64,000 nt of DNA from a bacterium (GTDB taxonomy: Bacteria; Planctomycetota; Planctomycetia; Planctomycetales; Planctomycetaceae), in NCBI GenBank assembly GCA_016124895.1, contig WGMU01000022.1:1-64000 (forward strand), read 5' to 3'. Shown here piece by piece: positions 32,856-43,509 of this stretch (position 1 is its first letter; each line of letters opens with the position of its first letter). A program made the position numbers and the translations under genes. The notes beneath the pieces are model-generated. The model was given only the letters and a program-made list of their open reading frames with translations. It made no database searches and was not told where the DNA came from.

Positions 32856-34172
32856 ATGCCTGAAATGCAGAGTGGCCGAGTTGATCGGCAGCCGAACTCC
32901 GGGCTGTTCTGCATCTGGGCAATTGCCGCGGCGTTCTGTACGTACTTCTGCATGTACGCGTTCCGCAAGCCGTTTACAGCGGGTGAATACGGCGGCATCA
33001 CGCTGGGCGGAATCGACTACAAAACGGTCCTCGTCGTCGCGCAGGTGCTTGGCTACACGGTGTCGAAGTTTATCGGCATCAAAGTCGTGTCGGAGATCAG
33101 TCCCGGCCGCCGCGGGATCGCAATTGCCGGACTGATCGGCAGCGCGGAAGTCGCGCTGGTTGTGTTTGCTGTGGTTCCGGCACCGTGGAACTTCGCGGCG
33201 CTCTTCTTTAACGGGTTGCCGCTGGGCATGGTCTTTGGCCTGGTGCTGTCGTACCTCGAAGGGCGGCGACTGACCGAAGCGCTGTCTGCCGGGCTGTGCG
33301 CGAGTTTCATTCTGTCGTCCGGCGTTGTGAAGTCGGTCGGCCGGTCACTCGTTCTGGATTATCACGTCAACGAATACTGGATGCCGGCGCTGACGGGGCT
33401 GATCTTTGCGCCGCCGCTCGCTCTGTCAATCTGGATGCTGACACGGATTCCACCGCCAGACGCGGTCGACGTCGAGCATCGCGCTGAGCGGAAGCCGTTG
33501 ACACGGATCGATCGCTGGGCGTTCTTTATGAAGTATTCGGTCGGCCTGTCGCTATTGCTGGGGATCTATATTGTTCTGACGGTGCTGCGGAGCGTGCGTG
33601 ATGATTTCGCCGTCGAGATCTGGACCAGTCTCGGCGTGTCGAAACAGCCGGAAGTCTTTGCTCAGACCGAGATGCTCGTCATGTTCGCCGTGACGGCTCT
33701 GAACGCAGCGGCGATTCTGATTGCCCGCAACCGGACGGCCTTTCTGACGGCACTCGTTCTGGTCGGCAGCGGCTTCGCGCTCGTCGCGCTGGCCTCGCTG
33801 CTGCAGTCAAGCGGCGTGCTGGGACCATTCGCGTTTATGGTGCTTTCGGGAATCGGGCTGTACGTCCCCTACGTCGCCTTTCACACGACCGTTTTCGAGC
33901 GGCTGATTGCGGCGACACGCGACAAAGCGAACCTCGGCTTTCTGATGTACCTCGCCGATTCGACGGGCTATCTGGGCTATGTCGCGGTGATGCTCGCCTC
34001 GACGTACGGGCTCAAGCGGCTGGACATGCTCGACTTTTTCCACACGCTCGCGTACGTCGTGGCGGCAAGTTCGATCGTGGCAGTCACAGTCGCCCTGCTG
34101 TGGTTCAGGCGGAAGATCCCGAGCAGTCACGCCGTATCGCCGGTCGTCGCTCCAGAGGGAGCCACACCATGA
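32856..34172 (+). CDS. DUF5690 family MFS-type transporter
   Basis: A 438-residue membrane protein with about 12 hydrophobic segments, starting WAIAAAFCTYFCMYAFRKPFTAGEY, the typical N-terminus of DUF5690 proteins, which resemble the major facilitator superfamily (compare the YAFRKPF motif of glycerol-3-phosphate-type antiporters). It ends at TGA 34172, overlapping the ATG of the alcohol dehydrogenase gene by four bases (ATGA 34169-34172). That coupling places it in the phosphonate cluster, and an organophosphonate importer is the natural guess. The guess rests on context and the weak resemblance to organophosphate antiporters, not on a seen substrate site. Confidence 0.88.
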   Translation: MPEMQSGRVDRQPNSGLFCIWAIAAAFCTYFCMYAFRKPFTAGEYGGITLGGIDYKTVLVVAQVLGYTVSKFIGIKVVSEISPGRRGIAIAGLIGSAEVALVVFAVVPAPWNFAALFFNGLPLGMVFGLVLSYLEGRRLTEALSAGLCASFILSSGVVKSVGRSLVLDYHVNEYWMPALTGLIFAPPLALSIWMLTRIPPPDAVDVEHRAERKPLTRIDRWAFFMKYSVGLSLLLGIYIVLTVLRSVRDDFAVEIWTSLGVSKQPEVFAQTEMLVMFAVTALNAAAILIARNRTAFLTALVLVGSGFALVALASLLQSSGVLGPFAFMVLSGIGLYVPYVAFHTTVFERLIAATRDKANLGFLMYLADSTGYLGYVAVMLASTYGLKRLDMLDFFHTLAYVVAASSIVAVTVALLWFRRKIPSSHAVSPVVAPEGATP

Positions 34173-35254
34173 CAGCTTCAACCAGTCGCGCCGTGGTGTT
34201 TCGTGTCGCCGGGCAGCCGCTGCAGTTGGAAGAGTTTCCGCTGCCGGAACTCAAGCCGCGCGAAGCGCTCGTCCGTGTCGACTTCTGCACGCTCTGCGGC
34301 AGCGATCTGCACTCGATGCTCGGTCATCGCCGAGTGCCGACGCCATCGGTGCTCGGGCACGAAATCGTTGGCTGCGTTGCCTCGGTCTCCACCGAGCAGA
34401 CGCCGGCCGATGTGACCGGAAGAACGCTGGCCGTTGGCGATCGCGTTGTCTGGTCCGTCGCTGCCTGCTGCGGCGAGTGCGATCGCTGCCGCCGCGGGCT
34501 GACGCAGAAGTGCCGACAACTCTTCAAGTACGGGCACGAATCGACTGATTCCCGATCGCCACTGAGTGGTGGGCTGGCTGAGTTCTGTCTGCTTGTTCCT
34601 GGCACCGCCGTCGTGACGCTCGATGAAACGTTGAGCGATCGCGAGGTCTGTCCGGTCAGTTGCGCGACAGCGACGGTCGCAGAAACCCTGCGAGGCTGTG
34701 GCGAACTCGATGGCCGCTCGGTGTTGATCTTCGGAGCGGGGATGCTCGGCCTGACCGCCGCGGCAATGTCGCGCTGGCTGGGAGCGAGTCGAGTCATTAT
34801 TTGCGATCTCGCCGCCGAACGGCTCGCCAGGGTTCGAGATTTCGGAGCAAGCGAAACGATACTGTGGTCCGACCTTGAATCTCAGCCGACGACAGGCGCC
34901 AGTCTCGACGTGGACTTCGCGCTTGAGATGTCCGGTTCGAGCGACGCAGCCGCTGCAGGACTTCAGCACCTGGCGACTGGCGGTGAGCTGGTGCTCGTGG
35001 GAGCGGTCTCGCCGACGCCTGCGGTACCGATCGAACCAGAGCAGATCGTGCGGCGCTTGCTGAGAATTCGCGGCGTCCACAACTACACGCCGCAATCACT
35101 GCAGCAGGCCGTGAGATTCTTGACCGAAACACATCACGAGTTTCCGTTTTCCGACCTGATTGAGCAGACGTTTCCACTGAGCCGGATCAACGAAGCGATT
35201 GCCTGCGCCGTCGAGTCGCGTGCGTGCCGTATCGGAATTGATCCGCGAAAATGA
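34169..35254 (+). CDS. Zinc-dependent alcohol dehydrogenase, phosphonate-cluster type
   Basis: A 361-residue medium-chain dehydrogenase. ATG 34169 has AGAGGGAG upstream and overlaps the transporter stop. The catalytic zinc site is CGSD at residues 43-46 with GHE at 63-65; the structural zinc site is C101, C104, C107 and C115 (C-x2-C-x2-C-x7-C). The nucleotide-binding fold begins VLIFGAGMLGLTAAAM near 184-200. Its best family match from memory is the phosphonate-catabolism-associated alcohol dehydrogenase model (TIGR03366), which fits the neighbours. The substrate is unknown; oxidation of a hydroxyphosphonate or hydroxyalkyl intermediate would fit. All zinc ligands are present, so it should be active. 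Confidence 0.87.
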   Translation: MTASTSRAVVFRVAGQPLQLEEFPLPELKPREALVRVDFCTLCGSDLHSMLGHRRVPTPSVLGHEIVGCVASVSTEQTPADVTGRTLAVGDRVVWSVAACCGECDRCRRGLTQKCRQLFKYGHESTDSRSPLSGGLAEFCLLVPGTAVVTLDETLSDREVCPVSCATATVAETLRGCGELDGRSVLIFGAGMLGLTAAAMSRWLGASRVIICDLAAERLARVRDFGASETILWSDLESQPTTGASLDVDFALEMSGSSDAAAAGLQHLATGGELVLVGAVSPTPAVPIEPEQIVRRLLRIRGVHNYTPQSLQQAVRFLTETHHEFPFSDLIEQTFPLSRINEAIACAVESRACRIGIDPRK

Positions 35255-35270
35255 GAGCTGGAGCCCAGCC

Positions 35271-35837
35271 ATGTCGACGATTGACGAAATCCAGAAACTC
35301 TTCGACGAACGGGGCGACTCGCAGTACGGCTTTGAAGCGGTTTCGCAGCGGGAGCACGCGTTGCAGGCGGCGGCTCTGGCGGAGCACGACGGCGCATCGC
35401 CGGCGTTGATCACAGCGGCGCTGCTGCACGATGTCGGGCACCTGCTGCACAATCTGCCGGACGATGCGACCGAAAAGGGCATCGACGATCAGCATGAGGA
35501 ACTTGGGCAACGCTGGCTGGAGCGATATTTTGGTCGCGATGTCTGGGAGCCGGTGCTGCTGCATGTAGCAGCGAAACGGTATCTCTGCCAGATCGAGCCG
35601 GACTACGAAGCGACGCTCAGCAGGCCATCGCGGCAGAGTCTCGCGCTGCAGGGCGGTGTGATGTCGGTCGAGGATGCTTCCGAGTTTGTGGCGCACAAAT
35701 TCGCCGACGACGCCGTTCGACTTCGCCGCTGGGACGACGCGGCTAAGGCTGCCGGACTCGAAACGCCGTCGATCGAGCACTTCCTGCAGTTCGTGGCAGC
35801 TTGCTGTCTCGACAGAACGGAGGCGGATTGTGAGTAG
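35271..35837 (+). CDS. phnZ: PhnZ-type HD-domain di-iron phosphonate oxygenase
   Basis: A 188-residue HD-domain protein. PhnZ cleaves the C-P bond of 2-amino-1-hydroxyethylphosphonate to glycine and phosphate with a mixed-valence di-iron centre. From the sequence I place Y19, E22, H29, H53, D54, H57 and H75 at the same spacing as PhnZ Y24, E27, H34, H58, D59, H62 and H80 (PhnZ numbers recalled, not looked up). H98 and K102 match H104/K108 after a one-residue shift. The SRPSRQSLALQGG segment and the RRWDD segment near 152-156 fit the substrate loop and last Asp ligand. The Tyr/Glu pair separates PhnZ-like oxygenases from ordinary HD hydrolases. No phnY hydroxylase is adjacent, so the hydroxylated substrate may be imported or made elsewhere. 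Start ATG 35271, 16 bases after the dehydrogenase. Confidence 0.86.
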   Translation: MSTIDEIQKLFDERGDSQYGFEAVSQREHALQAAALAEHDGASPALITAALLHDVGHLLHNLPDDATEKGIDDQHEELGQRWLERYFGRDVWEPVLLHVAAKRYLCQIEPDYEATLSRPSRQSLALQGGVMSVEDASEFVAHKFADDAVRLRRWDDAAKAAGLETPSIEHFLQFVAACCLDRTEADCE

Positions 35838-36984
35838 TTCGACCCACGAAGAATCGTTTGACGTGGCTGTCGTTGGAGCCGGGATCGTCGGCCTCGCGCA
35901 CGCCTGGATGGCGGCACGGCGCGGGCTGCGGGTTGTCGTCTTCGAACGGTCGCCTCGCGCGATCGGCGCCTCAATTCGGAACTTCGGGATGATCTGGCCG
36001 ATTGGCCAGCCAGCCGGCGAACCATTTCTGGTCGCACTGCGGTCGCGCGCGTTCTGGCTCGAACTGGCCGAGGCTGCCGGACTGTGGCTCAATCCCTGTG
36101 GCTCGATTCATCTCGCACGGCACGCTGACGAACTGGCCGTTCTCGACGAGTTCTGCTCAGTCAGCGCGGCAGGCGATTACTCCGTCCGGATGCTGACGCG
36201 AGATGAAGTGCTGCAGCGGGCGCCGGCTGCGAATCCGGACGGACTGCTTGGCGGGATGTGGAGCGAGACGGAACTGTGCGTCAATTCGCGCGATGTTATC
36301 GCCCGGCTGTCGTGCTGGCTGAGCGAGATGTTTGGTGTTGAGTTTCGATTCGGTTCGCTCGTCACCTCTGTTGAGCCGGGCGGAGTGACGACATCGGCAG
36401 GACAAAGCGTCGTCTGCGAGCGAACAGTGATTTGCAGTGGCAGCGATCTGCAGACACTGTTCCCGTCCGTACTCGCCGAGTCCGGGCTTAAGCTCTGCAA
36501 GCTGCAGATGATGAAAACCGGCCCGCAGCCGGACGACTGGCGCATTGGTCCACATCTGGCCGGAGGACTGACGTTGCGGCACTACCTGGCGTTTGCCGGT
36601 TGCCCGTCACACGCCGCCCTGAGGCAACGGTTCGTCGTCGAGAAGCCTGAACTCGACCGCTTCGGCATTCACGTCATGGCGTCGCAGAACAATTCCGGCG
36701 AAGTCATCCTCGGCGACTCGCATGAGTATGACGATGAAATGACACCATTCGATTCGAGCGAGATCGAGTCACTGATGCTCCGCGAACTGCGCGAGCTGAT
36801 CGTCCTGCGCGACTGGCAGATCGTCGAACGCTGGCACGGTGTCTATGCCAAACATCCCGAACGGCTGATCCTCGAGGCTGAACCTCAACCCGGCGTCCAC
36901 ATCGCTGTCGGCCCTGGCGGTGCCGGCATGACACTGTCATTCGGCCTGGCGGATCGACACTGGACACGCTGGCTCGGAGAGTAA
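35830..36984 (+). CDS. FAD-dependent amine oxidoreductase, phosphonate-associated (TIGR03364-like)
   Basis: A 384-residue DAO-family flavoprotein. The start is GTG 35830, preceded by GGAGGCGG at 35819-35826 and overlapping the phnZ stop by eight bases; longer in-frame readings run back into phnZ. The FAD-binding motif is VAVVGAGIVGLAHAWMAARRGLRVVVFER at the N-terminus, followed by GASIRNFGMIWPIGQPAGEP, a pattern I associate with the phosphonate-cluster oxidoreductase family TIGR03364. Members have been reported to oxidise aminoethylphosphonate or its N-methyl derivative to phosphonoacetaldehyde, which would feed PhnX downstream; that substrate is from memory and context. The C-terminal VGPGGAGMTLSFGLADRH closes the dinucleotide fold. 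Confidence 0.85.
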   Translation: MSSSTHEESFDVAVVGAGIVGLAHAWMAARRGLRVVVFERSPRAIGASIRNFGMIWPIGQPAGEPFLVALRSRAFWLELAEAAGLWLNPCGSIHLARHADELAVLDEFCSVSAAGDYSVRMLTRDEVLQRAPAANPDGLLGGMWSETELCVNSRDVIARLSCWLSEMFGVEFRFGSLVTSVEPGGVTTSAGQSVVCERTVICSGSDLQTLFPSVLAESGLKLCKLQMMKTGPQPDDWRIGPHLAGGLTLRHYLAFAGCPSHAALRQRFVVEKPELDRFGIHVMASQNNSGEVILGDSHEYDDEMTPFDSSEIESLMLRELRELIVLRDWQIVERWHGVYAKHPERLILEAEPQPGVHIAVGPGGAGMTLSFGLADRHWTRWLGE

Positions 36985-37014
36985 ACAGCAATCGTCTATC
37001 AAACTGAATTGCGG

Positions 37015-37073
37015 CGTGCCACTGGATTTGCCAGGGAATCTCGCGGCTCGGGCACTGGCAGAGCCAGTGGCAC
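37015..37073. repeat. Palindromic REP-like element
   Basis: GTGCCACTGG at 37015-37024 is the reverse complement of CCAGTGGCAC at 37064-37073, and inside the second copy CACTGGC-AGA-GCCAGTG (37053-37069) forms a perfect seven-base stem with a three-base loop. The element lies in the 172-base gap between the FAD oxidoreductase and phnX. It resembles short palindromic repeats dispersed in planctomycete intergenic DNA; only one copy is visible in this window. Confidence 0.6.
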
Positions 37074-37156
37074 ACAATTCAGGAACATTCTCATTCCGAC
37101 ACTCTGCGTGGGCACGGGAAGAGTCTCCTGATTTCTTCAACAGGAAACACCTCACG

Positions 37157-37954
37157 ATGGCAGCTCCCTTCAAACATCTTAAAGCCGTTGTCTTCGACTG
37201 GGCGGGCACGACGGTTGATTACGGCAGTCGGGCGCCGGCACTGGTTTTTCGGGAAATCTTCCGGCGAGAAGGTGTCGAGATTTCGTTCGAGCAGGCTCGC
37301 GGCCCGATGGGTCTTGCCAAGCGCGACCACATTGCGGCGATCCTGCAGCTTCCGGAAATCGCTGCCCGCTGGGAGCAGTCACACGGACGGGCCGCCGGGG
37401 ACTCGGACATCGATCGGATGTATCACGAGTTCCTGCCGCTGCAGAAGGAGACGCTGGCGGCGCACTGCGACCTGATTCCCGGCGTGTCGGACGCGGTGGC
37501 GGAGTGCCGGCGTCGAGGTCTGAGGATCGGCTCGACAACCGGCTACACACACGAACTGGTTGACGTTTTCGCCGCCCGGGTTACCGAGCAGGGGTATTCG
37601 CCGGACTGCGTGATCTGCGCCGATGACGTTCCGCAGGGCCGCCCCGCTCCGTGGATGCTGCTCGAAGCGGCCAGGCAACTCGATGCTTACCCACTGCGGC
37701 ATATTGTCAAAGTCGACGACACCGCGCCGGGCATCGAAGCAGCCATCAACGCTGGCTGCTGGGCGGTCGGCGTGACGCGTACCGGCAACGAAGTCGGCCT
37801 GACCGAAGCCGAGTTCGCCGCTCTGCCCGCGGACGCTCAAGCCGCCACCATCCAGTCCGCCACCGAGAAGCTCATGGCCGCTGGTGCTCATTTCACAATT
37901 GAGTCAGTCGCGGACCTCGGCACGATTCTCGATGCGGTCGATTCCCGCCTTTAG
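37157..37954 (+). CDS. phnX: Phosphonoacetaldehyde hydrolase (phosphonatase)
   Basis: A 265-residue HAD-superfamily enzyme that hydrolyses phosphonoacetaldehyde to acetaldehyde and phosphate in the cytoplasm. The nucleophile motif is FDWAGTTVD with D14, and the Schiff-base lysine lies in RGPMGLAKRDHI (K55), matching D12 and K53 of the Bacillus enzyme. GSTTGYT (motif II), the RPAPWM segment and KVDDTAPGIEA (motif III) complete the active site. Start ATG 37157 was chosen because the preceding in-frame sequence crosses a palindromic repeat and is not protein-like. It ends the phosphonate cluster and would use phosphonoacetaldehyde supplied by the FAD oxidoreductase. No PhnW transaminase is present in the window. 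Confidence 0.94.
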   Translation: MAAPFKHLKAVVFDWAGTTVDYGSRAPALVFREIFRREGVEISFEQARGPMGLAKRDHIAAILQLPEIAARWEQSHGRAAGDSDIDRMYHEFLPLQKETLAAHCDLIPGVSDAVAECRRRGLRIGSTTGYTHELVDVFAARVTEQGYSPDCVICADDVPQGRPAPWMLLEAARQLDAYPLRHIVKVDDTAPGIEAAINAGCWAVGVTRTGNEVGLTEAEFAALPADAQAATIQSATEKLMAAGAHFTIESVADLGTILDAVDSRL

Positions 37955-38008: not shown

Positions 38009-39157
38009 CTACTCCGGAACGTTCGCCAGCAGCCAGTCTTCGGCGACGATCTGCTGGAGCAGGGGGGCTCGCAGGAGGGCAGCGTTTTTTGAGAGGTACT
38101 GCGTCAGCCACGGGCGGCTGTGGACGATCGACGAAACCGCACGCATCCCCAGACTGGCAAGATTGCGCTGACTGAGCTGGGCCGTGATATTCATGCTCAG
38201 GCGTTTGAGCGTCGCCGGGATGATGTTCGGTTCCGGACCGAGGTGAATAATACGGTGAATGTCTGACGCGAGCAGCTTCTCGATGACGCTCCAGAGTCTC
38301 TGGGGATGATCGACCCAGTCGTACAGAAGCTGCCGACTGTTGAAGTCGTTGTACGAGTCCGCTCCGGTAATAGCTGAGATGATTGGGATCGAGGGTACTT
38401 GAAATCCGCCGGGGACGGTTTCGAGCATCACGCTGGCGCGATCGGGCACGTTTCTTTGTCGCACGATGGCCGTGTGGATTGGCGGCCAGCGGTCGGGGTT
38501 CTCCTTGACGTGGATCTCGCGCGGAAAGCGAGTTTTGACTTCCTCGCGGAACAGGTCCAGCGAGCGGCCCTGACCGAGAACCAGCACGCTGTTCGGCGCG
38601 AGGTAGCTCGAAATACAGATGGTGCCCTGATTCCGAGCGGTGACTTCGACGCAGAGCTTCTCGATTGCCTGCGTGTCGAGGGCCGGGCCACGCGAGAAGA
38701 CGATACCCATGCGCGTGTTACGGGCCAGTTCGACGCAGTCGTCAGAGAGTTTGAGAATTGGCGTGAGGAGTGCTTCGAGACTGTAGACACCTGTGGCAAC
38801 CAGCGCGCTGACTTCACCGAGACTGTAGCCGACGGCCAGTCGGGCTGCATTGAATTCGACGCCGTAAAGTTCCTTGAGAATCTCAAGCTGGGCGCGTTCA
38901 GTCGCGACAATCAGGCTGATTGCTTCACCGTAGTTTTCGAGAGTGGTCTCCTCTCGCAGCCGCACGCGTTTGACCAGGTCAACCCGTTTGAGCGTGGCTG
39001 AGGAGTAGAGTTCGGCGGCGTCCTTCAGGTTCCGCTCGACGATCGCCCCATAGGCCGGATGCTCCAGCAGTTCGGGAGTACGACCGAGATTCGTGACGTT
39101 GTAACCGCGAAATGCCCAGGCGGTTCCCTTGAGGTCCTGGCGAATGTCAAGTTCCAT
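38009..39157 (-). CDS. FabD-like acyltransferase lacking the GQGSQ motif
   Basis: About 382 residues from ATG 39157, which has GGAAGG nine bases upstream; an in-frame ATG at 39217 is possible. The central part matches malonyl-CoA:ACP transacylase-type acyltransferases: LAVGYSLGEVSALVATG with the nucleophile Ser at 112, a downstream ARNTRMG segment in the position of the carboxylate-binding Arg, and PPIHTAIV with a candidate catalytic His at 228. The N-terminal GQGSQ oxyanion motif of FabD is replaced by WAFRGYNVTNLGR, and the nucleophile elbow has Tyr instead of His. It stands alone, divergent from a large gene of unknown function, with no ACP or ketosynthase nearby. A specialised or altered acyltransferase is likely. 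Confidence 0.75.
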   Translation of the reverse strand: MELDIRQDLKGTAWAFRGYNVTNLGRTPELLEHPAYGAIVERNLKDAAELYSSATLKRVDLVKRVRLREETTLENYGEAISLIVATERAQLEILKELYGVEFNAARLAVGYSLGEVSALVATGVYSLEALLTPILKLSDDCVELARNTRMGIVFSRGPALDTQAIEKLCVEVTARNQGTICISSYLAPNSVLVLGQGRSLDLFREEVKTRFPREIHVKENPDRWPPIHTAIVRQRNVPDRASVMLETVPGGFQVPSIPIISAITGADSYNDFNSRQLLYDWVDHPQRLWSVIEKLLASDIHRIIHLGPEPNIIPATLKRLSMNITAQLSQRNLASLGMRAVSSIVHSRPWLTQYLSKNAALLRAPLLQQIVAEDWLLANVPE

Positions 39158-39459
39158 CGGGCCGGGCCTTCCTGCGATCGGCATCTGATTCATCGGCTGG
39201 GAGAGCTGTCGTCTCATACCAGCGGGCGGAATCGTATCCGGGACTTCTGATGCCGCAAACGGGAGTCTCAGGCGTTCGGTCGCGAGTTTCCGCCCGCCGG
39301 AACAGGTTGGTTGCCCGAGCCTTCGGAACTCTCCAGAATCGAGCCCTTACCCTACTGCAGCAGGCTGTTCACGTCCGCGATGACTGCGGCACTGAGCCGT
39401 CTGCCGACGTGTCGCCGGATGAGCGAATCATCGCCTGTCCGTGAACTCTGGAAATTCGA
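39158..39459. promoter_or_regulatory. Divergent intergenic region
   Basis: About 300 bases separate the minus-strand acyltransferase from the plus-strand 1349-residue gene, so promoters for both must lie here. Short open frames cross it but none has a convincing start or resembles a protein. I found no clear -35/-10 pair or operator palindrome. Confidence 0.4.
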
Positions 39460-42400
39460 ATGTCACAACGGACTGATTCAGGACTTGCGCTTCCATCCGC
39501 TGATCTGGATGCTGCCTTCACCAAGGTTCTCGGCTACCTGAACTTTTCGGGCGGTAAAGCAGATCCGGCTTTCCTGGCGGCTCTGGATCAGGTCGCGGTT
39601 GACTCAGGTTTCGCGGAATCGTGGTCACCTCTGAGCACCGCGTTGCTCGACCGTCTGGCGTCATTGAAAAGCGATAATGCCGCATTCAGCGACAGTTCCC
39701 AGGCGGAGGCGGTGATCAGGTTTGTCTTCGATACTCTGGTGCCCGCTTATCAGTCGTTTCACGCGGACCTGTTGTTTCATCTGCAGCCGGCCGAACTTCA
39801 GAATACGTTCTTCCTGGGCCGGTGCTTCGAAGCGGCACTCGAACAGGGGGGGCCGTGGGGTGACACGGAACGGATGGTAGACGAGTCGCTCGCCCGGCTG
39901 AACGATTACGTCGGCTATCGCCCGATCGCGGTGCTCGAAGACGGCCGCAAGATGACGCCGTATTCACACGAGCGTTTCCGGCCGTTGCCGCTGTTCATTG
40001 CCGGAGCCGGTGTCTGTTCGGGACCGCATCGGGCGATCGTCGAGCGGGCTCTCGAACTGATGGCTGTGGTCCCGTCCGAAGTGCTCGGCGGCGCCTACTT
40101 CGATCTCGATCGGCTGGACGAGCTGGCACTCGATGTTCGCGCCTACGATCACGATCATCCAGCGTTCAAGCGGACAAATTACCTGTTCGGCGAGTGGGAT
40201 CCGCACCTGATCGACAACAGCGGGTATTACCGGCGGTTCGTCGTTCGCAAGATCATTCTCGACGCGCTGGTTGACTGGGTTGACGGGCAGAGGAACAAGG
40301 TTGAGGCCGTCTTCGATGCCGGTTCTGTTCTGTGTGGCACGATGCTGATGGCGTCGTCGATCAGCGGCGACGGACCGGCGACGCACGACTCAACCGTGTC
40401 ATTAACGTCGCTGCTGCCGGTTGTTGCGCGACAGCGGGATGACTTCTATCTGCGACTGATGCAGACCGTCGATGGCGCGCGGGCGAAGCGTCTGCTCAAA
40501 CATGCGCAGCAGACGCAGCAGCCCTTCGGACACGTCCGGCAGGCGCTCAATCTGCATCTCGCCCATTACGGTGCGAGGCAGGTTCAGTATCGGACGCTCG
40601 CCGCTATTTATGCACGCATGGGGCACGCCGAGGCTGCACGGCAGCAGGCATCGATCATCCCATCCACCTCGGCGCGATTCGAATGCGAGATTCTCTGCCG
40701 CATCGCGTCGGCAAAAATTGACCTGGAACGCGGACAGCTTGACGCGGCTGATTCTGCACTGCGGGAAGTCGAGGATCTGCTGCGACGTGGCATCGACTGC
40801 GGCGCGATCGTCGATCCGTGGAACATTCTCGGCTTTCAGGGCAACTTTCCGTTGTTTGCCGCGCGGGAAGACAGCATTCCCGATCAGCGTGTCGAAACGC
40901 TGCTCGACATGATCGAACGGCTGTTCGGCGTTTTTTCGCGGGCGCTCAGCGAAGCGGCGGCTCAGGGGCGGACGGAACAGCTCCGCGATCTGACGCGACG
41001 CTTTGATGAACTGACCACGTGGTGGGACCAGTTTGCGTCACACGTCATCGAAGATCTGCCGACAGTGATCGGCAGCGAGGACCTGGAATCTGCAACGCAT
41101 GTCGCGCAAGCGCTGGCGGAATGGCGGGCGGCTGGCGAAGCGGCTGGCGATATTTCCTTCTGGCGGCGGCACGTTGACGTGTTCCAGTCGGCCAAGTCAT
41201 TCGCCTGCGTGGTTGAGTCGCTCCTCGCGCGGAATGATCACGTCGCCGCAATGGCACTGCTGGTTCAATGGCTGTGCAGTGCTGAAGACGTCGGCATCGA
41301 GTCCGGTCCGTATTCGATTCATGCGCTGCTGATTGAGTGGATGAAACGAGTCACCTCGGTTGATGGCGATGGAAAGACGCCGCGATGTGACTGGCCTTCC
41401 ATTCGGCGTTTGTTCGATTTTCTGGAAGCCAACGCCGGCAGCTACTGGGACGTCCCGCAGCTTGACGCGGTTGCGGCAGGAATCGCCAGTCGCGACAGCG
41501 AAGCCGATCTTGATGCCTGGGACGTGGAACGTGGCGATGACTGGCTGAACGCCGACGATTCGGATGACGATGACGAATCGAATCTGTTTCAGGCGGCTTA
41601 TGACGACATCACATTTAAAGACAGTACGGATGACGGCGTCGAAAGCGAGACGCTCGACAGCGGAACGGCGCCGGGAAATACAGAGTTCGAGATTCTTAAT
41701 CGCGAACTCGAGCCGCGAATCAAGTTCATCATGGCGCTGGCACAACTCTGGCAGATCGCCGCGTCGGCCATGGCGGCTGAGTCGTTCTCCCAGCCGACGA
41801 AAGACGGAGCCAGCTCCGATTTGAATGAAAATCAGGTCGACGCACTGCTGGGCTGGCTGCACCGCGTGCGGGCTCTGCAGAACGACCTGCTGCATCTGAT
41901 GAACGCCGTCTGGGAGCGCGAGGTCGACGAATCTGGTGGCGATCACGATGCCAACGTTGAATACGACATTCAGCTGCAGACGAAATTCTACCTGCTGAAT
42001 ACGATCATCGCGACGCACATCAATTGTCGCGTCGCTGAGGTCGGTCTGCTGTGCCTGCTGCCAGCGAATGCTGCCCAGCAACCTCCGGGCGAGGAAGATC
42101 AGCAGATGGTTGACTTCTATCGGGCGGTGATCAGTCAGGACGTCGATGCCGTCCGCACTCTGCTGCAACAGCAGTTTCGACGGCTCGCGCGAAAGCCGTT
42201 GCTGTATGTACCGCTCGACAGCGGCGGACATCCGATGCAGATCCTCGCCGCACGGTCCGTGCAGACAGATATTCGTTTCCTGCTGACGCATCTGCCGCGT
42301 CTGGGACTGTTTCGTGAAACCTGGCACGTCGCGCGGCTGGCGCATCGAATGGAACGCGAAACGCGGCTCGACGGCATGGCCGTCACCGAGTTTGACCGTA

Positions 42401-43509
42401 TTTTCCGGACGGCTTTGCGGAATACGATCGAGTGTCTGCTGTCGTGCGCGGAGTCCTGGGAGAACGTCGAAGAGCCGGATCACAACCTGCTGTCGCTGAT
42501 CAGCGACGTTCTGGAGCATTACCGGAATCAGTGGCATCGTCACAGTCGAACGATGCGTCTGTCATCGGTGGAAGGGCTGCAGCGGGACGTCATCTGGGAA
42601 GACGTCTGTGAGTTCATCGAGAAATATGGTGAGGACCTGTTTCACGCCCGCAACCTGACGCTCGGCAATGTGCGGACGATTCTGCATAACGGAATAGAAT
42701 GGTTCCTCGCACAACTCGCCGAACTTGAAGACCCGCTGCATCCCATGCCGCTGCTCAGCGATCTCGAAGACGGCGTCCTGGACCTCGACGACACGGCCGA
42801 GATGCTCGAACTGATTTATGGCTCTGTGGTCGACAAGTTCGATCGTTTTCTTGAATACAACACGACGACGACTCAGTCGGATTATGGCAGCAAGTTTTAC
42901 GTGCTGCTGGACTTTCTGCGGGTCGAAGCGGAGTACGATCGGCACGCCTGGGACCGAATTCCCGAAGGTATTGTGCATCGTGCGCTGGCGATGGCTGACC
43001 GGCCGGAACTCCTGCGAATGCTCGAAGAACGGTTTGAAGCCGAGACTCGCCGACAGGCAGACCGGCACGTCGAAGCACTGCAGCAACTGGAAAAGAAGTA
43101 CGGCGTGCATCTCCCCGGTGTCAGTGACCGACTGAATGAACGATTTGTCAAGCCGCTGGCAGTCAACCGGATGCTCGCACTTGTCGAGCCGGCATTGAGA
43201 ACCGCATCCAGCGGCGAGGAATGCGGCGAACGTTTCGAGCAGCTTCGTGCCGAGATCGATTCCTACATGCACGACCAGGCAGGCTCGGCGATTGACATCC
43301 CTCAGTGGCTGCAGGACGTCGAACGCGAAGTCAACCGACTCGAAATGCCCACTGACTATATTCGTCCGCCGGAACTTGACGCCCACATGCCTGTGGCCCG
43401 CGTGGCTCAGGCTGACATCATGCAGCAACTGGCTGTCTGGAGTCAGTCGCTGACGATTTCCGAAAGTGCGCGGCGACGACGGACCAGCCGCAAAAAGAGC
43501 AGTGAATAG
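39460..43509 (+). CDS. Large predicted helical protein of unknown function
   Basis: A 1349-residue protein that I do not recognise. It starts ATG 39460 with a weak GGAAA upstream, has no signal peptide or membrane helix, and is almost wholly alpha-helical in character. A short segment around residues 360-420 (LAAIYARMGHAEAARQQASII ... LERGQLDAADSALREVEDLL) has TPR-like helix pairs. Residues about 685-740 form a very acidic tract (runs of Asp, Glu and Ser) that splits the protein into two helical halves. The C-terminus is basic (ARRRRTSRKKSS). It looks like a cytoplasmic scaffold or repeat protein. It is divergent from the FabD-like gene and followed after 45 bases by an exported propeller. 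Confidence 0.8.
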   Translation: MSQRTDSGLALPSADLDAAFTKVLGYLNFSGGKADPAFLAALDQVAVDSGFAESWSPLSTALLDRLASLKSDNAAFSDSSQAEAVIRFVFDTLVPAYQSFHADLLFHLQPAELQNTFFLGRCFEAALEQGGPWGDTERMVDESLARLNDYVGYRPIAVLEDGRKMTPYSHERFRPLPLFIAGAGVCSGPHRAIVERALELMAVVPSEVLGGAYFDLDRLDELALDVRAYDHDHPAFKRTNYLFGEWDPHLIDNSGYYRRFVVRKIILDALVDWVDGQRNKVEAVFDAGSVLCGTMLMASSISGDGPATHDSTVSLTSLLPVVARQRDDFYLRLMQTVDGARAKRLLKHAQQTQQPFGHVRQALNLHLAHYGARQVQYRTLAAIYARMGHAEAARQQASIIPSTSARFECEILCRIASAKIDLERGQLDAADSALREVEDLLRRGIDCGAIVDPWNILGFQGNFPLFAAREDSIPDQRVETLLDMIERLFGVFSRALSEAAAQGRTEQLRDLTRRFDELTTWWDQFASHVIEDLPTVIGSEDLESATHVAQALAEWRAAGEAAGDISFWRRHVDVFQSAKSFACVVESLLARNDHVAAMALLVQWLCSAEDVGIESGPYSIHALLIEWMKRVTSVDGDGKTPRCDWPSIRRLFDFLEANAGSYWDVPQLDAVAAGIASRDSEADLDAWDVERGDDWLNADDSDDDDESNLFQAAYDDITFKDSTDDGVESETLDSGTAPGNTEFEILNRELEPRIKFIMALAQLWQIAASAMAAESFSQPTKDGASSDLNENQVDALLGWLHRVRALQNDLLHLMNAVWEREVDESGGDHDANVEYDIQLQTKFYLLNTIIATHINCRVAEVGLLCLLPANAAQQPPGEEDQQMVDFYRAVISQDVDAVRTLLQQQFRRLARKPLLYVPLDSGGHPMQILAARSVQTDIRFLLTHLPRLGLFRETWHVARLAHRMERETRLDGMAVTEFDRIFRTALRNTIECLLSCAESWENVEEPDHNLLSLISDVLEHYRNQWHRHSRTMRLSSVEGLQRDVIWEDVCEFIEKYGEDLFHARNLTLGNVRTILHNGIEWFLAQLAELEDPLHPMPLLSDLEDGVLDLDDTAEMLELIYGSVVDKFDRFLEYNTTTTQSDYGSKFYVLLDFLRVEAEYDRHAWDRIPEGIVHRALAMADRPELLRMLEERFEAETRRQADRHVEALQQLEKKYGVHLPGVSDRLNERFVKPLAVNRMLALVEPALRTASSGEECGERFEQLRAEIDSYMHDQAGSAIDIPQWLQDVEREVNRLEMPTDYIRPPELDAHMPVARVAQADIMQQLAVWSQSLTISESARRRRTSRKKSSE

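Follow-up and report, generated by a model that had tools for sequence, protein, structure and literature searches.

The protein that we call P0001 is encoded in a 64,000-nucleotide stretch of planctomycete DNA (the window in what follows) and belongs to a family that we read as Ser-His acyltransferases for ordinary acyl groups, serving the breakdown of long-chain fatty acids; the case for this reading seems to us evenly balanced. The family lacks the part that would grip malonate and tends to co-occur with genes for burning long-chain fatty acids, so an ordinary fatty acyl group is the probable substrate. Catalytic activity itself, and the length, donor and acceptor of the acyl chain, are what we infer for P0001. 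Enzymes of the FabD fold are known as malonyl loaders for fatty-acid and polyketide synthesis, and a conserved branch tied to beta-oxidation would show the fold at work in lipid breakdown. The lipid metabolism of planctomycetes is poorly known, and the family offers a definite gene with which it can be tested; genes of the P0001 type should not be named fabD. The features of the gene and its product are collected in Table 1.

Table 1. Features of P0001 and its gene, in window positions
Feature	Position	Strand	Remarks
Gene for the FabD-fold protein P0001	39157..38009, including stop	minus	382 aa
Residues 17-23, RGYNVTN, replacing FabD PGQGAQ	39089..39109	minus	alignments to own FabD and within the family
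Nucleophile elbow GYSLGE, residues 110-115	38813..38830	minus	Ser112 in 86/86
Residues 137-138, Leu-Ser, at the place of FabD Arg117	38744..38749	minus	alignments
Arg156, family motif FSRG	38690..38692	minus	79/86 rows
His228, at the position of FabD His201	38474..38476	minus	86/86 rows
C-terminal part, residues 349-377, motifs RPWL, LLRAP and LEDWLL	38027..38113	minus	family alignment

Fold, Family and the Separate FabD

By eye, a ribosome site resembling AGGAAGG lies immediately 5′ of the ATG at 39157; from the reading of open frames, a start at 39217 is also possible and would give 402 residues. Comparison with the gene of a relative whose protein is 88% identical (L072) finds 36, 19 and 162 differences at codon positions 1, 2 and 3 over 382 codons, most of them at the third position, so that selection keeps the protein. 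This bias, together with the presence of the gene in 113 of 397 genomes of the class, argues that it is not a chance frame.

By sequence the resemblance to FabD is weak. The Pfam model Acyl_transf_1 (PF00698) scores P0001 at 15.2 bits (E 0.016), under its gathering cut-off of 32.7, and the NCBIfam fabD model (TIGR00128) at 31.8 bits (E 9.5e-8), under a cut-off of 260.9; solved FabDs match at an E of about 1e-6, and P0001 is longer than FabD by some 70 residues. The structure predicted with an alignment of 86 relatives is confident (pLDDT 94.7, pTM 0.92). In a Foldseek search its best PDB matches are FabDs, that of A. baumannii at E 8.2e-17, and VIA-align superposes 304 residues on FabD at 2.9 A (Z 31.2, 20% identity; 18-20% to solved FabDs in this comparison). 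Judged from this predicted fold, the assignment of P0001 to the FabD fold is firm. What it has in common with FabD (TIGR00128) is the fold over about 300 residues, the Ser-His pair and a G-x-S-L-G-E elbow; unlike FabD, the family is without Gln11, Arg117 and Phe200.

The earlier note on this DNA raised the case that P0001 might be the sole malonyltransferase of its genome; since a normal FabD is encoded elsewhere in that genome, the case does not apply. This second protein (C52; 289 bits, above the cut-off) reads FPGQGAQ and GLSLGE, and its gene stands in a plsX-fabD-acpP group, whereas that of P0001 lies outside such a group. A search of the genome with the FabD model finds only these two proteins, and a FabD above the cut-off occurs in 33 of 36 genomes searched.

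The same note suspected a lineage-specific protein and proposed a phylogeny against FabD and polyketide synthase (PKS) acyltransferases. The outcome bears it out: when 23 rows of the family are placed in one tree with 21 FabDs from planctomycetes and 13 acyltransferases of the PKS type, the family forms a single branch, apart from both, with 100/100 support and a length of 3.27. PKS acyltransferase domains have the same fold and catalytic pair as P0001, which differs from them in its separate branch, in being free-standing and in the absence of recurring PKS neighbours. The count of 113 carriers among the 397 Planctomycetia genomes was obtained with P0001 as query at E ≤ 1e-20; nearly always there is one copy, in a few cases split over contigs or frames. 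Across 246 genomes of the phylum, a profile of the family scores members at 518 bits or more and everything else at 62 or less, including every genome outside the class. A scan of genome contigs for which P0001 was the single query, and whose reach is limited to close relatives, returned 6 loci, all in records labelled as planctomycetes, and 72,556 plasmid records held no match to the family. No description of it was found in titles and abstracts of the literature, and the words acyltransferase and fatty acid are absent from the accessible portion of PMC5020050. The family is large and widespread in planctomycetes, uncharacterised and apparently undescribed.

Residues of the Active Site

Residue counts were taken from the family alignment, whose 86 rows differ from P0001 by up to 60%. 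The earlier note had remarked that the Ser nucleophile and a candidate His were retained, and this holds throughout the family: Gly110, Ser112, Gly114, Glu115 and His228 are invariant in all 86 rows. Such constancy of the Ser, the His and the G-x-S-x-G-E elbow, over rows so divergent, speaks against a protein of the FabD fold that has no enzymatic role, for example a scaffold or an acyl-CoA sensor. FabD-fold subunits from mitochondrial ribosome assembly are among the matches (7pua, 8csp) and lend that idea some precedent, but we regard it as highly improbable.

The N-terminal motif is changed as the note had claimed, P0001 reading F-R-G-Y-N-V-T-N against F-P-G-Q-G-A-Q in the FabD of its own genome. 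R17, G18 and N23 are invariant (86/86), and residue 19, at the place of FabD Gln11, is Tyr in 80 rows and Phe in 6, compared with Gln in 21 of 21 planctomycete FabDs. A reading in which loss of Gln11 means loss of the oxyanion hole is not supported. Nor can the GYSLGE elbow be taken as a mark of altered function, and we have dropped it as a clue: the residue before the nucleophile is Leu (GLSLGE) in all 21 planctomycete FabDs. Neither the altered elbow nor the lost Gln argues against catalysis by P0001.

The arginine that in FabD holds the malonyl carboxylate is a different matter. Two alignments put the place of Arg117 at column 138 (Ala, Ser, Thr, Cys) and one puts it at column 137 (Leu, Met), one residue apart; neither column has an Arg in any of the 86 rows, and column 139 has one in 4 of the 86. 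In the alignment used for the tree, Arg stands at this place in 21/21 FabDs, 12/13 PKS-type acyltransferases and 0/23 family rows. The residue before His228, at the place of FabD Phe200, is Leu, Ile, Met or Val in the family (0/23 Phe) and Phe in 21/21 FabDs. On this comparison, the lost Arg117 argues against malonyl as the substrate of P0001, and because the malonate-binding Arg is gone in 86/86 rows, the suggestion of a different acyl donor or acceptor, made in the earlier note, gains support. That note mentioned neither the loss of Arg117 nor the family's connection with genes of beta-oxidation.

A second transferase of malonyl (or alkylmalonyl) groups, which might supply a discrete ketosynthase system, would fit the FabD fold, the Ser-His pair and the genome's five matches to stand-alone ketosynthases. 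We nevertheless consider it very improbable indeed, given that the arginine for the malonyl carboxylate is gone at the aligned place in every row, that a normal FabD is present and that no ketosynthase or acyl carrier protein gene recurs beside the acyltransferase gene (AT, for genes of the P0001 family).

The nearest rival is an acyl hydrolase, a thioesterase acting on acyl-CoA or acyl-ACP that would free trapped CoA or proofread carriers in the manner of PksD-type enzymes; it is indistinguishable from a transferase by sequence, and we rate it as unlikely but worth weighing. PksD-type acyl hydrolases from trans-AT polyketide synthase systems are described as retaining the fold of FabD together with its Ser-His pair while losing the Arg, whose absence is termed diagnostic of a hydrolase in those systems (PMC11775670), and the Arg is likewise lost in all rows of the P0001 family. 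At the place of Gln12 the same hydrolases always retain Gln or His, and at that of the Arg their usual residue is Gln (same source), whereas the family has Tyr or Phe (86/86) at the former and Ala/Ser or Leu/Met at the latter. The setting differs as well. Unlike PksD-type genes, that for P0001 is not in a trans-AT PKS cluster, and the genome has no multidomain ketosynthase frame: its five ketosynthase matches all lie in frames of 421-503 residues, so that no type I PKS is seen, and the FabD model finds nothing there besides FabD and P0001. Four of the ketosynthases (G000:C50, C78, C102 and C146) stand alone, besides the one that adjoins fabD.

For a transferase of ordinary acyl groups there is a partial parallel. 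The malonyl/palmitoyl transferase domain of yeast fatty acid synthase has the FabD fold and transfers long acyl chains to CoA; unlike what we propose for P0001, it also loads malonyl, and it keeps the Arg. Yeast fatty acid synthase structures (8prv, 9d49) are among the fold matches of P0001, with Z about 27.5.

Further residues set the family apart. R17, N23, H305 and R319, together with R156 (79/86), are family-specific and invariant or nearly so, and W350, E373 and L376 in the C-terminal part are invariant in the 86 rows.

Association with Beta-Oxidation Genes

Neighbourhoods were compared at 101 loci, one per genome, drawn from the 113 carriers; f1, f2 and so on denote GTDB-like families. 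An acyl-CoA dehydrogenase of about 650 residues, resembling VLCAD, lies within 7 kb of the AT in 22 of the 101 loci and on the same strand in all 22, joined by FadB in 15 and FadA in 14. The AT precedes the dehydrogenase in 19 loci and follows it in 3; by family, 18 of the 22 belong to f2, 3 to f4 (the reversed order) and 1 to f1. The earlier remark that the gene is not near fatty acid genes is true of this window and untrue of the family. The best structural matches of the dehydrogenase model are human VLCAD (E 7e-20) and other long acyl-CoA dehydrogenases, and loci fetched around the dehydrogenase in other genomes contain FadB in 13 of 20, FadA in 13 of 20 and a FadD-like ligase in 9 of 20. 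A tblastn search with the AcpP of the P0001 genome found no acyl carrier protein gene near the AT in 104 AT loci, no ketosynthase or PKS gene recurs beside it in the loci compared, and none for a PKS lies near P0001 in the window.

The association extends to genomes as wholes. At E ≤ 1e-105, a limit chosen after the scores had been seen and one that drops 14 genomes of f15, the dehydrogenase is present in 198 of 397 genomes; 109 have both genes, 4 the AT only, 89 the dehydrogenase only and 195 neither (p 1e-36). With a looser limit of 1e-80, the dehydrogenase is found in 110 of the 113 carriers. Counted by genus, the figures are 62, 4, 46 and 73 in the same order (p 9e-15). Within f1, f2, f3 and f5 there are 33 joint genera against 19.6 expected (p 3e-8), and the single-family genus tests give p 0.006, 3e-5, 0.07 and 0.014, respectively; in these tests genera count as independent units, although they are not wholly so, and because the two genes adjoin in f2, a single deletion could there remove both. 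Two carriers without a dehydrogenase match, G098 and G213, are true exceptions on these data; in G147 a cut-off copy of the dehydrogenase adjoins the AT at a contig end, and G388 has only a fragment of the AT. The genome of P0001 has, elsewhere, the dehydrogenase at 60% identity and 871 bits as well as a match to FadB at 61%, with one in-frame TAG reported in the matched stretch.

Since 89 genomes have the dehydrogenase and no AT, the AT is, by gene content, dispensable for beta-oxidation and an accessory. In a FastTree tree of 40 dehydrogenase rows, the 10 rows from AT-free genomes require at least 4 label changes, which implies gain or loss several times. Evolutionary distances of the AT and the dehydrogenase are correlated over 26 genomes (r 0.72, with none of 2000 permutations as high); we do not count this mirror test as evidence, because shared ancestry alone yields such a value.

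We suggest that Ser112, activated by His228, would accept acyl groups of the ordinary, monocarboxylic kind from a thioester. With no arginine for a malonyl carboxylate and with smaller aliphatic residues in place of Phe200, the pocket should suit uncharged acyl chains. The family may then work with the VLCAD-like dehydrogenase, FadB and FadA in long-chain fatty-acid breakdown, where it would swap long acyl chains between CoA and a second thiol, most likely that of an acyl carrier protein; chains that are carrier-bound or in surplus could thereby enter beta-oxidation, or the reverse. In its most specific form the proposal is that of a transacylase peculiar to the Planctomycetia, one that would shuttle long acyl chains between ACP and CoA beside the VLCAD-like dehydrogenase and so bring carrier-bound chains to beta-oxidation; this form is tentative, and we think it less likely than not.

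PHA synthesis was considered as a partner pathway and set aside: PhaC_N is without a match in 80 of 80 genomes, namely 40 carriers and 40 non-carriers that have the dehydrogenase.

H4MPT-Synthesis Genes and Other Neighbours

Genes for H4MPT synthesis (SDR, DHPS-like DUF6513, PabB, PabA, MptG) occur near the AT in 34 of the 101 loci, in 8 families and usually divergent from it; these loci outnumber the 22 with beta-oxidation neighbours, which counts against our main reading. The other 45 loci, the window being of the same kind, have neither these nor beta-oxidation genes nearby. A role in H4MPT-linked one-carbon metabolism, such as acylating an intermediate of coenzyme synthesis, might be read from those 34 loci, in which an SDR, the DHPS-like protein (DUF6513/TIGR00284) or MptG lies within 7.5 kb. 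The distribution over genomes makes such a role improbable. DUF6513 occurs as often in carriers of the AT (100 of 113) as in other genomes (255 of 284; p 0.72), 13 carriers, that of P0001 included, are without it (7 have no match and 6 are inferred from its absence among the matches listed), and the SDR is also present in all 14 AT-free genomes among 36 searched. With the dehydrogenase associated and DUF6513 not, the AT follows beta-oxidation and not H4MPT, though it often lies beside H4MPT genes, an adjacency that an old neighbourhood or a promoter region in common would explain.

The SDR, a candidate pterin reductase, was likewise rejected as the true partner of the AT: it follows the H4MPT genes, although the P0001 genome keeps an SDR without DUF6513. 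The run SDR - DUF6513/DHPS-like - PabB - PabA - MptG is conserved in L034, L036, L038, L050, L068 and other loci. In the P0001 genome the SDR (56%) is at G000:C190:21972-22715 (locus L203); there is no DUF6513 match anywhere in that genome, and 18 kb around the SDR contains no match to DHPS, PabB or MptG.

Four loci (L140, L126, L044 and L105) suggested gene fusions, a suggestion that we dropped because the long frames look antisense or of low complexity and no fused domain is visible by eye. In family f11 (L043, L061, L096, L099, L109 and L114) the AT, again by eye, adjoins a CBS-domain-like protein and pilus- or secretion-like genes.

On the plus strand of the window, positions 32856-37954 hold a phosphonate-use run that encodes a DUF5690 membrane protein, which may be a transporter, HpnZ alcohol dehydrogenase (TIGR03366), an HD-domain oxygenase (TIGR03276), HpnW FAD oxidoreductase (TIGR03364) and PhnX phosphonatase (TIGR01422). 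The link to phosphonate use that this neighbour suggested was rejected: the phosphonatase is rarer among the carriers (43 of 113) than among the other genomes (137 of 284; p 0.07) and has no positive association with the AT. On the other side, at 39460-43509 and divergent from the AT, the plus strand encodes a protein of 1349 residues whose only match is a weak one to TPR, with none among the NCBIfam models.
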